Source of the DNA: an uncultured bacterium
GTDB lineage: Bacteria > Actinomycetota > Actinomycetes > S36-B12 > CAIYMF01
DNA length: 52,402 nt
Assembly: GCA_903927265.1 (NCBI GenBank)
Contig: CAIYMF010000270.1
Location: 1-52,402, forward strand
Direction: 5' to 3'
Made by a program: the position numbers and the translations under genes. The notes under the pieces were generated by a model that was given only the letters and a program-made list of their open reading frames with translations, did no database searches and was not told the DNA's origin. This document shows, piece by piece, positions 7,934 through 36,420 of this stretch (position 1 is its first letter; each line of letters starts with the position of its first letter).

Positions 7934-8050
7934 TCAACCACTCGCGGAAATGGCTAGGTGACTCTGAGTAGCCAAAATCCCTCCGATTAGCCATTTGTGC
8001 GGGAAGTCGGCTACGCTAGGCCACATTGTGATCTAGCCGACATGTACTTA

Positions 8051-8254
8051 AGTCCCTTCACAGGGACTGAAAGGCTTGTCTCAGCGGTTGCAGTATGTGA
8101 CGCTTGTGACTAAGCACGTACTCGGTGGTACTCAGCGTGATGATTTCCCCGTCCGGCCAGATAGGGCCGGACACTGCATGATGTCGCACGTGAATCCCTT
8201 CACGAGCGAAGAAAACCGGATCGACCCGTTCGATCCCTGCCGGCAACTGCCGGC
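8051..8254 (+). promoter_or_regulatory. hairpin-rich leader of whiB1
   Basis: The 339-base gap between the lipid kinase and whiB1 has five perfect hairpins in a row on the sense strand: AGTCCCT/AGGGACT (8051-8068, loop 4); GTCCGGCC/GGCCGGAC (8151-8172, loop 6); CGTGAA/TTCACG (8189-8204, loop 4); GGATCGA/TCGATCC (8218-8236, loop 5); and GCCGGC/GCCGGC (8239-8254, loop 4). The last ends six bases before AAGGAGG (8261-8267). I recognise no known riboswitch. It may be a structured 5' UTR acting on translation, RNA stability or attenuation. The gap also holds a TGTGAC direct repeat (8096-8110), and I see nothing else in it. Confidence 0.5.
8096..8110. promoter_or_regulatory. TGTGAC direct repeat, 9-bp period (copy 2), upstream of whiB1
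   Basis: TGTGAC-GCT-TGTGAC, with the same spacing as copy 1 at 6399. It lies 160 bases before the whiB1 start, between the first and second hairpins, a normal place for an activator or repressor of whiB1. TGTGA is also a CRP half-site, but both halves point the same way, which argues against CRP. Confidence 0.45.
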
Positions 8255-8272
8255 GTAGACAAGGAGGACACC

Positions 8273-8530
8273 GTGGATTGGCGCCATCGCGCTGCCTGCC
8301 GTGACGAGGACCCGGAGCTGTTTTTCCCGATTGGGAACACCGGGCCTGCACTGCTGCAGATCGAGGAGGCCAAGCAGGTGTGCCGTCAATGCGAGGTCGT
8401 CGAAGACTGCCTCACCTGGGCCCTTGAGTCCGGCCAAGATGCTGGCGTGTGGGGTGGCCTCAGTGAAGATGAGCGCCGTGCCCTCAAGCGTCGCCGTCAG
8501 CGTGCCAACGCTGCTGCTCGCCTGGTCTAA
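8273..8530 (+). CDS. whiB1: WhiB-family iron-sulfur transcription regulator, WhiB1-like
   Basis: An 85-aa protein with all four [4Fe-4S] ligands, C9, C37, C40 and C46, at the same positions as in mycobacterial WhiB1, followed by the GVWGG turn and a basic C-terminal DNA-binding tail (RRALKRRRQRANAAARLV). WhiB1 senses nitric oxide through its cluster and binds the primary sigma factor; it is essential in mycobacteria. The start is GTG 8273, five bases after a perfect AAGGAGG. The neighbours (lipid kinase before, pdtaS convergent after) match the mycobacterial whiB1 locus. The end overlaps the pdtaS stop by four bases. A long structured leader precedes it. Confidence 0.95.
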   Translation: MDWRHRAACRDEDPELFFPIGNTGPALLQIEEAKQVCRQCEVVEDCLTWALESGQDAGVWGGLSEDERRALKRRRQRANAAARLV

Positions 8531-9999
8531 ACGACCGGTACGCCGATCGTCACCTGAGCGCCGGGTCCGCCCACTGGTCCGAGGTTGAGAGTTCCGCCCA
8601 GATCTTCTTCAATCAACGTGCGCACGATGCGTAGGCCGAGGCCATTGGATACGTCGGCGTTGGCTGAGAAACCCGGGCCTTCATCGGCGACCACGAGCGT
8701 GACTTCATCGTCGGTGCGTTGCGCCTTCACAGTAATGGTGCCGCCATCGGGAGCGAGTCCGTGTTCGACGGCGTTCATCAGCAACTCGGTGAGCGCCATC
8801 GCCAACGGAGTGGCGCGTTCGGCGGGCCACATTCCGACCGAGCCTTCGCGCACGACCTGACCTCCGTGTGCGCTGGCGGTATCGGCGGCGAGCGCCACCA
8901 CACGTTGCATCACGTCGTCGAAGTCGACCGTTTGTCCGGGAGCCAGTGCGAGCACTTCGTGCACGACGGCGATAGCGCCGACGCGGCGCACGGCTTCATC
9001 GAGGGCGAGACGTGCTTCACCTTCGGGAATGCGTCGCGCCTGCATGCGCAGCAACGAGGCCACGGTTTGCAGATTGTTCTTCACGCGGTGGTGGATCTCG
9101 CGAATGGTGGCGTCTTTGGTGAGCAGCGCGCGGTCACGGCGGCGCAGGTCGGTGACATCGCGCACGAGTACAAGTGAGCCGACGGGGCGACCCGACGCGC
9201 GCAAAGGCAGGCCGCGCAACGTCATCACGCCGATGCCACTGTCGACTTCGGATTCACCCGCCACTCCCCCACTGGCCACGATGGCGAGTGATTCATCGAT
9301 GGCGCCGGCGCGGTGACGCAGTCGGCTGACGGTGCCGGAGAGTTTGGAGCCGGTGAGTTGTGCGCCGAGTCCGAGACGGTGGAATGCCGAGACTGCATTG
9401 GGGCTGGCGAACTCGACGACCCCCTGAGTGTCGAGACGCAGCAAGCCATCGCCCACGCGCGGTGTGGCAGTTCCGACCGACAGTGATTCGGCGTAGGGCC
9501 ATTCGCCGCCCGCGAGCATGCGCGCCAAGTCGTCGAATGAACGCAGGTAGACCTGCTCGAGTTCACCGAGTGCGAGTGAGTCGGCGTCGCCCGTGGCAAG
9601 GCGTCGGCGCAGCATCGAGGCGTGGCGCGCGATGACGCCGATGACGCGGCCTTCGCGCACGACTGGCACGGCTTCGACGTCTTGCGGTACGAGTGGAAGT
9701 GAGTCGTCGCGCGAGAGCACCGGTGCACGCGAGGCGATGGCGCGATCGACGCATACCCATTCACCGCGCGGGGCGAACTGACCAACGAGGTCGTCGGGCA
9801 CCGAGGTGGCGCCGGTGGTGGGACGCACCTGTGCCGCGGCGATGACGCCACCGTCGTTCCAGGTGGGCACCCACAGCACGAGGTCGGAGAAGCCCAAGTC
9901 AGCGAGTAGCGACCATTCGGCAACGACCGCTTGCAAATGAGTAGCGTCGTCGTCGGAGAGTTCCGTGCGGTCGCGTGCCAGCACCGTCAGACTTGTCAC
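8527..9999 (-). CDS. pdtaS: PdtaS-type soluble sensor histidine kinase
   Basis: A 490-aa cytoplasmic kinase with no membrane helix. The order is an N-terminal GAF-like domain (about 1-150), a PAS-like domain (about 170-275), a HisKA_2-type dimerisation/phosphoacceptor helix (TIREIHHRVKNNLQTVASLL, about 298-317, with the phospho-His in the HH pair), and a HATPase domain with the N-box (ALTELLMNAVEHGL), DEGPGFS and NGLGLRIV. In mycobacteria PdtaS phosphorylates the RNA-binding antiterminator PdtaR and takes part in stress, metal and nitric oxide signalling. No PdtaR gene is in the window. The start is GTG 9999. A tiny membrane-peptide gene lies immediately upstream in the same direction. Confidence 0.9.
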   Translation of the reverse strand: MTSLTVLARDRTELSDDDATHLQAVVAEWSLLADLGFSDLVLWVPTWNDGGVIAAAQVRPTTGATSVPDDLVGQFAPRGEWVCVDRAIASRAPVLSRDDSLPLVPQDVEAVPVVREGRVIGVIARHASMLRRRLATGDADSLALGELEQVYLRSFDDLARMLAGGEWPYAESLSVGTATPRVGDGLLRLDTQGVVEFASPNAVSAFHRLGLGAQLTGSKLSGTVSRLRHRAGAIDESLAIVASGGVAGESEVDSGIGVMTLRGLPLRASGRPVGSLVLVRDVTDLRRRDRALLTKDATIREIHHRVKNNLQTVASLLRMQARRIPEGEARLALDEAVRRVGAIAVVHEVLALAPGQTVDFDDVMQRVVALAADTASAHGGQVVREGSVGMWPAERATPLAMALTELLMNAVEHGLAPDGGTITVKAQRTDDEVTLVVADEGPGFSANADVSNGLGLRIVRTLIEEDLGGTLNLGPVGGPGAQVTIGVPVV

Positions 10000-13088: not shown

Positions 13089-13964
13089 TTAGAAGCAGAG
13101 CTTCTTGATGAGCGGAACCGGGTCGACTGCCGACGCGTGGTACCAGGCGTCACCGGGCGATCCGGGCCGGTACTCGAAGTGCAGGTGCACGGCTCCGGGT
13201 GCGCCAGTGTCGCCCGCGCGCCCGATGAGTTGACCGGCCTTGACCGTGTCGCCATCGCTCACCAGGTTCTTGGACTGGTGACCGTAGTACCAGACCGCGC
13301 CGCTCTTGCCCTTGATAGTGATCGCGAGCGCACCGTTGCTCTGCATCTTCGCCCCGGCCACCACACCGCCTTCAACGGCGTAGATCGGCCGACCCATCGT
13401 GGTCATCAGGTCGATGCCTTGATGTGAGTGATCGCCACGATTGGCGCCGAAGCCGTCGCCCAAGTAGGCGCCGATGGTCGGGCAGAAACGCCCGGAAGTC
13501 GCTGTCGTCTTACAGGTGCGGCCGGTGAACGATCCACAGCGCGCAGTGGTGCCACCGCCGGTGCTCGTCGATCCACCGCCACTGCTCGAGCCGCCGGTGT
13601 TGGCCTTCCAGCCGGTGATCGACGCATACGTCTTGGGGCCCACCGCGGGCGACGGGCCGAGGTCGTGCGCCTTCTTGTAACGCATGATCGTGGCCATCGT
13701 CGCCGTGCCAAGCACACCGAACTTGGTGCGGCTGCTGGCCAGCGTGAGGCCCGAAATCTTGTAGCCGTGGGCGAGCAGACCCTTCTGCACGGCCGTGACA
13801 GCAGCACCGTGCGAGCCCGCCTTGAGAATGCCTGGGAAGTTCGGCACCGACGCGCGCACAACGACGCCCGTGGGAGCCGGTGCAGCGGTAGCGGCAGTCG
13901 CTGGAATCAGCGCGGCCGAGAGGGCGAGAACGGACATAGCAGCGAACGTGAGACGTCGTGACAC
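13089..13964 (-). CDS. secreted M23 (LytM-type) endopeptidase with peptidoglycan-binding domain
   Basis: A 291-aa exported cell-wall hydrolase. A Sec signal peptide (LTFAAMSVLALSAALIPATA) ends near Ala27. A peptidoglycan-binding_1-like domain follows (about 45-115: LKAGSHGAAVTAVQKGLLAHGY, then GPKTYASI), then a Gly/Ser linker, a cysteine-containing segment (RCGSF..CKTT..FCP) and the M23 domain. Zinc ligands are visible in HSHQGIDL and HLHFE; the strand YAVEGGVVAGA and YYGHQS are typical. It should cut peptide cross-bridges in peptidoglycan. The start is GTG 13964, eight bases after GGAGGT. Directly upstream is a ydaO-type c-di-AMP riboswitch, so expression should fall or rise with c-di-AMP. 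Confidence 0.9.
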   Translation of the reverse strand: MSRRLTFAAMSVLALSAALIPATAATAAPAPTGVVVRASVPNFPGILKAGSHGAAVTAVQKGLLAHGYKISGLTLASSRTKFGVLGTATMATIMRYKKAHDLGPSPAVGPKTYASITGWKANTGGSSSGGGSTSTGGGTTARCGSFTGRTCKTTATSGRFCPTIGAYLGDGFGANRGDHSHQGIDLMTTMGRPIYAVEGGVVAGAKMQSNGALAITIKGKSGAVWYYGHQSKNLVSDGDTVKAGQLIGRAGDTGAPGAVHLHFEYRPGSPGDAWYHASAVDPVPLIKKLCF

Positions 13965-13980
13965 AGTCGGACCTCCGCAC

Positions 13981-14190
13981 GCCTACGAGGTGAGCTGTCG
14001 GGTTCGGACCATCGCTATGGCCCGGCCCTCCGTGAGGAGAACTTCACCCCAAGGGCACCACGGTCGGTGCTCAGAAGGTTGGGTCCCCCGCTCCCGCCCG
14101 AGGGGGTATGGCACCCGGGTGAGGGCGGGATTTGGCGTTCACCCGGCGACCGTCCCCTTCCCCAGGGACGATGCGGAAACGTTACCAGCC
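13981..14190 (-). promoter_or_regulatory. c-di-AMP riboswitch (ydaO/yuaA type) for the M23 peptidase
   Basis: On the minus strand the leader carries hallmark ydaO segments in order: GGGGACCCA, then GGGGTGAA, then CCGAACCCGACAGCTCACC followed by TCGTAGGC. These conserved blocks form the two c-di-AMP pockets in this class, which in actinobacteria often precedes cell-wall hydrolases. The 3' end is only a few bases from the GGAGGT of the peptidase gene, so it could act on ribosome access, although ydaO switches usually end transcription. The 5' limit is approximate. The rest of the gap to 14329 shows nothing I can name. Confidence 0.88.
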
Positions 14191-36218: not shown

Positions 36219-36236
36219 GCCTTGTCCTCTCCCCTG

Positions 36237-36420
36237 CCGCCTACCGAGTTAGCTGACGGGCTCGGGCTGGGAAAAGGCCCTACCACCGACCGAAGTCGGA
36301 GGATTCGCCCCAGGAACACGTGGGTCCCCGGCTCTGGACTGGCCCTGTCGGACCTGCCGCAGATTCGGCGGTTCGCGGTTCGAGGCCACTGGAGTGACCC
36401 CGACTGACCTCGTCAGCGTA
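36237..36420 (-). promoter_or_regulatory. c-di-AMP riboswitch (ydaO/yuaA type) for the NlpC/P60 hydrolase
   Basis: On the minus strand GCCGGGGACCCA, then GGGGCGAATCC, then CCCGAGCCCGTCAGCTAACT followed by CGGTAGGCGG appear in the same order and spacing as in the switch at 13981-14190. These are the conserved ydaO cores. A pairable TCCGACTTCGGTCGG hairpin lies in the variable region. The 5' edge is approximate. Confidence 0.88.

Follow-up and report, generated by a model that had tools for sequence, protein, structure and literature searches.

The whiB1 locus and its promoter

The window (the whole 52,402-nt stretch of DNA that was analysed) carries whiB1 on its forward strand. The identity of the gene, given as whiB1 in the initial annotation, was confirmed by a Pfam Whib match and by its neighbours, which encode DAGK and a PdtaS-type kinase (Pfam); we take the gene order to be that of M. 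tuberculosis Rv3218-whiB1-pdtaS. WhiB1/WblE is an essential protein and binds an iron-sulfur cluster. The features of the gene and of the region before it are listed below.

8027-8042 (+): CRP-like site TGTGA-N6-CGACA, a putative activator site, kept in most orthologues of the order
8051-8068 (+): hairpin 1, perfect stem of 7 bp, loop of 4, after the CRP-like site and before the -35 element
8076-8104 (+): predicted promoter, -35 TTGTCT (8076-8081), 17 nt, -10 GACGCT (8099-8104), extended TG
8151-8172 (+): leader hairpin, perfect stem of 8 bp, loop of 6 (AGATAG), recovered in folds
8187-8206 (+): putative Rex operator CACGTGAATCCCTTCACGAG, drawable as a hairpin at 8189-8204 (6 bp, loop of 4)
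8218-8236 (+): leader hairpin, 7 bp, loop of 5 (ACCCG), recovered in folds, identical in the sister species
8239-8254 (+): leader hairpin proximal to the Shine-Dalgarno (SD) sequence, perfect stem of 6 bp, loop of 4 (AACT)
8261-8267 (+): SD sequence AAGGAGG, kept in orthologues, starting six bases past the last stem
8273-8530 (+): whiB1, 85 aa, GTG start, Pfam Whib (97 bits, 1e-27)

Promoter elements were compared in the upstream regions of 46 orthologues. Most of these share a layout of a CRP-like site, 31 nt, a -35 element TTGT/TGGA, 17 nt and a -10 element TGnGAnCCT. The distance from the CRP-like site to the -35 element is 33 nt in the window, 41 nt in three loci of family f6 (L032, L039 and L045) and 21 nt in a locus of a reduced genome (L030). 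These steps of ten nt suggest helical phasing, as with a CRP-type activator, and the window agrees with a CRP-activated promoter in the helically phased spacing between a CRP-type palindrome and the -35 element; the right half-site of the palindrome, CGACA, is imperfect. CRP-family proteins are encoded in the genome, the best being a 244-aa protein (L228:1053-1787). The promoter was predicted from the column-wise agreement of about 30 orthologues, and 34 of 35 positions in this region are the same in the sister species. Transcription of whiB1 would start near 8110. Because the predicted promoter at 8076-8104 places hairpin 8051-8068 upstream of it, this hairpin is probably untranscribed and outside the leader.

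CRP is known to control whiB1 of M. tuberculosis through sites in tandem, activating and inhibitory (PMC4117774). The window resembles that CRP-controlled promoter in its upstream CRP-like site and in its gene neighbours. It differs in having one CRP-like site, at about -76 from the predicted start, whereas Mycobacterium has its CRP sites in tandem, one at around -57.5 and one closer to the start. Unlike the window, the mycobacterial loci L168-L172 have no Rex-like palindrome evident by eye.

The hairpin row and a candidate Rex operator

A stem scan of the window recovered five non-overlapping perfect stems within 214 nt upstream of whiB1, at exactly the coordinates first reported, against a background elsewhere in the window of 0.23 per 214 nt on average and 2 at most. 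In the whole window, all 214-nt stretches with more than two stems overlap the whiB1 leader site. The last stem ends at 8254, six bases before AAGGAGG, as had been noted. RNA folding gave z = -2.9 for 8040-8290, z = -3.6 for 8110-8258 and z = -4.4 for the 50 nt at -60 to -10 before whiB1. The proposal that the five stems form one leader RNA was upheld in part: the region is structured beyond chance, but hairpin 8051-8068 probably lies upstream of the transcription start, which leaves four stems in the leader, and of these the stem at 8189-8204 is best explained as a Rex operator in the DNA, with the three others as leader stems. Within the cluster, one Rex operator is well supported by homology, and an RNA role for the stems at 8151-8172, 8218-8236 and 8239-8254 is plausible from what was seen in relatives.

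The comparison set comprised one other genome from the window's genus and 17 from its family, so that operator and stems were compared within the genus between two near-identical genomes only. Relative to the sister species, the leader (8131-8272) carries three substitutions, of which one is in a stem, a C-to-T change in 8239-8254 that leaves a U-G pair in place. In the sister species, stem 8051-8068 matches at only 11 of 18 positions and its pairing is disrupted. Since whiB1 itself (8273-8530) does not differ from that of the sister species (L003) at any of its 258 positions, not even at third codon positions, the close match of the leader does not count separately as a sign that the stems are constrained. 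In neighbouring genes, about 84-85% of third positions are the same in these two species, and the full identity of whiB1 may reflect either a strong constraint on its codons or gene conversion at this locus.

The palindrome at 8187-8206 contains GTGAA-N4-TTCAC exactly, has one mismatch to TYGTGAA-N4-TTCACRA and fits the Rex operator consensus TTGTGAANNNNTTCACAA. With at most one mismatch the pattern occurs at five sites in the 3.67-Mb genome, the whiB1 site among them; perfect matches occur at two only, before nuoA and serA. That of nuoA (L227) lies 56 nt upstream of the gene. The perfect Rex-type palindrome of serA (phosphoglycerate dehydrogenase, L192) stands at about position 1501, 67 nt upstream. 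Rex is encoded in the same genome (PF06971, 1.3e-19 at G000:C168; 227-aa ORF at L226:1424-2107).

In S. avermitilis, the wblE leader is enriched with Rex by ChIP and footprinted by it with DNase I from +108 to +135, Rex represses wblE, and a block of RNA polymerase was suggested by the authors; the effect of NADH was shown on cydA1, the wblE leader being shown as binding only, and nuo is among the proven targets of Rex (PMC5355995). The site in the window shares with that operator the orthologous gene, the type of palindrome and a position in the 5' leader downstream of the start, and nuo is a target common to the S. avermitilis Rex regulon and the window genome. The differences are that the operator of the window reads CACGTGAATCCCTTCACGAG, is one of four leader stems and lies at a distance from the start that was estimated rather than mapped. 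The site at 8187-8206 is best explained as a candidate Rex operator, representing a known kind of control of whiB1/wblE.

The same palindrome stands 30-140 nt upstream of whiB1 across most of the order, and also before whiB1/wblE in Streptomyces, in Pseudonocardiales, in Streptosporangiales-like loci and in other actinobacterial loci. Among 47 loci of the order, rex was present for 29 of 29 site-bearing loci, and the six loci with no detected rex were all devoid of the site (Fisher p = 0.0017, with kinship ignored, several genomes incomplete and two sites near the start codon scored as absent). At least nine loci with rex have no site (f3 and part of f4). The base pair adjoining GTGA/TCAC is C-G in 51 loci but C.A in another 49, as expected of TTGTGA/TCGTGA half-sites; C.A is no standard RNA pair and would not be favoured in an RNA stem, whereas a DNA half-site tolerates it.

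The loci from genomes with no detected rex, whose whiB1 leaders have no palindrome, were L005, L013, L015, L016, L018 and L031, and the leaders of L005 and L013 are wholly unlike those of their f6 relatives. Another palindrome, GGGTGAGTTCACTCACC-like, was seen in Pseudonocardiales (L081, L086, L106, L148 and L149) about 40 nt before the whiB1 -35 element TTGACA.

Folding of whiB1 leaders in related genomes

The initial annotation had named covarying stems in related whiB1 leaders as the feature to look for, and such stems are present in relatives, in genus g3 and in family f6. Leaders of g3, which belongs to the same family as the window, contain a post-start hairpin, a pre-operator hairpin, a stem of the operator spacer with bases just after, and an SD-proximal hairpin. 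For the first three elements 86.9% of cells were paired, against at most 45% in slid versions, a control that favours the structure because it was derived from the alignment also used for counting. Double-change cells numbered 31, compared with 10.4 after shuffling (0 of 500 shuffles as high), and double changes occurred in 16 of 29 pairs. Hairpin 8151-8172 of the window matches in position hairpin B/P2 of relatives, and its counterpart covaries in g3.

Hairpins that differ in sequence are found just before the SD in many orthologues. Folding of this region gave a mean z of -1.1 for whiB1 leaders (n = 45) and 0.04 for 46 other genes (p = 3e-5), the latter being crudely called genes on 21 stretches of the same genomes. 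With operator overlaps and near-duplicates removed, the mean for whiB1 leaders was -0.78 (n = 30, p = 0.003).

The whiB1 leader of f6, a related family, is much better conserved and is a structured RNA of ~145 nt (alignment A5; loci L035, L036, L077, L080, L085, L087, L091, L098, L239, L266 and others). In 30 sequences the operator spacer (AGCAA) pairs with an upstream UUGCU, the upstream and spacer segments occurring as TTGCT/AGCAA, AAGCA/TGCTT, AAGTC/GACTT and TTACC/GGTAA; the partner of the operator loop is an upstream segment in f6 and a downstream segment in g3. In this helix 92% of cells pair (slid versions at most 57%) and double changes occur in five of five pairs, and an unguided scan of a 15-sequence alignment returned it as the best-covarying helix. 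The pairing may be either a pseudoknot or a kissing helix. The GUGA/UCAC stem is almost invariant, as expected if Rex holds it. Stem P1, a long-range helix, surrounds a hairpin and a conserved CUUCCUCC and exists in many compensating versions; as P1 is misregistered by MAFFT in the f6 alignment, the 68% paired in one fixed register understates it. Base pairing of the conserved CUUCCUCC with the SD would be possible.

A covariance model of the 30 f6 sequences (R1) gave scores of 56-134 bits for 62 loci of the f6 clade, among which are the 30 training loci and some duplicates, and of 33-128 bits for 8 loci that were not in the training set, some of them copies of training sequences. The window leader reached 10.8 bits (E 0.17), less than the 12.3 bits of an unrelated stretch, a score that is not significant for membership in the f6 RNA. 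The window and the f6 leader RNA have in common the gene, the order and a similar succession of hairpin, operator hairpin and SD-proximal hairpin, and the window leader aligns in register, with TTTCCCC where f6 has CUUCCUCC. The window differs in having no demonstrable P1 or pairing of the loop with an upstream segment. By inspection, the window leader holds no clear complement of AATCCCTT. Pairing of the operator loop of the window with GGAUU at the start codon was considered and rejected: it has five pairs, but chance would give about as many matches of this kind.

The earlier statement that no named RNA has such a layout agrees with the Rfam searches: no family scored above the gathering threshold in 7940-8540 or in 12 related loci, and nothing credible appeared in the leader at E up to 10. 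Covariation in relatives backs the folding of such leaders as RNA, and from this we infer it for the window.

A leader peptide at 8177-8258 (+; 26 codons, ATG at about 8177, TAG at 8256-8258) was rejected as unconserved in the family beyond the constraint of the operator; both substitutions in this frame relative to the sister species are synonymous. The leader of whiB7, which contains a uORF and an attenuator (PMC4128351), is like that of the window a long regulated leader of a WhiB-family gene. Unlike whiB7, the window leader has no T-tailed terminator by eye, and its family has no conserved leader peptide.

Control of whiB1 and alternative explanations

Taking the analysis as a whole, we consider it likely that the whiB1/wblE leader combines a Rex operator with a folded mRNA leader. 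Transcription would begin at about 8110, at a promoter preceded by a CRP-like site, and the putative operator at 8187-8206 would lie about 86 nt into the transcript. By homology with S. avermitilis wblE, Rex would occupy the operator at low NADH and block RNA polymerase, and would be released as NADH rises. The stems at 8151-8172, 8218-8236 and 8239-8254 would make up the folded mRNA leader, for which a part in mRNA turnover or in ribosome access near the SD might be the likeliest role. Redox control via Rex offers the best explanation among the mechanisms considered. Redox sensing had been among the functions initially suggested, and it is retained here through the predicted Rex operator in DNA and not through five stems acting as one RNA; no support was found for sensing of NO or of a metabolite by the leader.

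An undescribed riboswitch-like RNA, sensing a ligand or controlling translation, with the stems as aptamer or expression platform, appears unlikely. Structured, covarying leaders in two clades speak for it, as does the f6 RNA, in which the conserved CUUCCUCC could base-pair with the SD and which model R1 scores in 62 loci. It is opposed by the window's own family, which has no aptamer-like conserved nucleotides outside operator and SD (BLAST matches start at the SD), by the score of the window against the f6 model, which is below that of a chance match, and by the want of any Rfam family. The covariation in g3 and f6 also argues against the cluster being a product of chance or of GC-rich composition with no function beyond the operator. 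The decay of stem 8051-8068 between sister species and the lack of leader conservation beyond the genus (BLAST) would fit such an origin, but the density of five stems against a mean of 0.23 and the leader z of -3.6 do not, and we regard it as improbable.

The conserved palindrome could also be a CRP/GlxR site and not a Rex operator, in that it fits GTGA-N6-TCAC, CRP-family proteins are encoded in the genome, and CRP controls whiB1 of M. tuberculosis (PMC4117774). However, the extended half-sites TCGTGAA/TTCACAA fit Rex, absence of rex predicts absence of the site, and the homologous site of S. avermitilis was footprinted with Rex (PMC5355995); moreover, the palindrome lies downstream of the predicted promoter, and a separate CRP-like site is phased upstream of it. 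CRP in place of Rex at 8187-8206 was judged less likely, and we give this assignment little credence.

With a Rex operator in the whiB1/wblE leader across Actinobacteria, the link to NADH/NAD+ balance would extend well beyond Streptomyces. A further, tentative reading, which we hold possible though not probable, is that the whiB1 leaders of the order make up a new class of structured RNA that regulates in cis, with the Rex operator as central hairpin and its loop pairing elsewhere in the leader, and that the window is a diverged member. If this were true, one sequence would serve as both DNA binding site and RNA hairpin, and the leader in the window would couple NADH sensing at the DNA level to control at the RNA level of an essential iron-sulfur regulator. 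The f6 leaders are unusual in that the half-sites contacted by the protein are invariant and the spacer between them covaries at the RNA level with a segment about 85-90 nt distant. Should this base pairing in f6 have a function, these leaders would provide a testable case of DNA-level and RNA-level control in one sequence.

Elsewhere in the window, two c-di-AMP riboswitches (RF00379) were found, at 13964-14147 (-; 61.6 bits) and at 36222-36380 (-; 81 bits).
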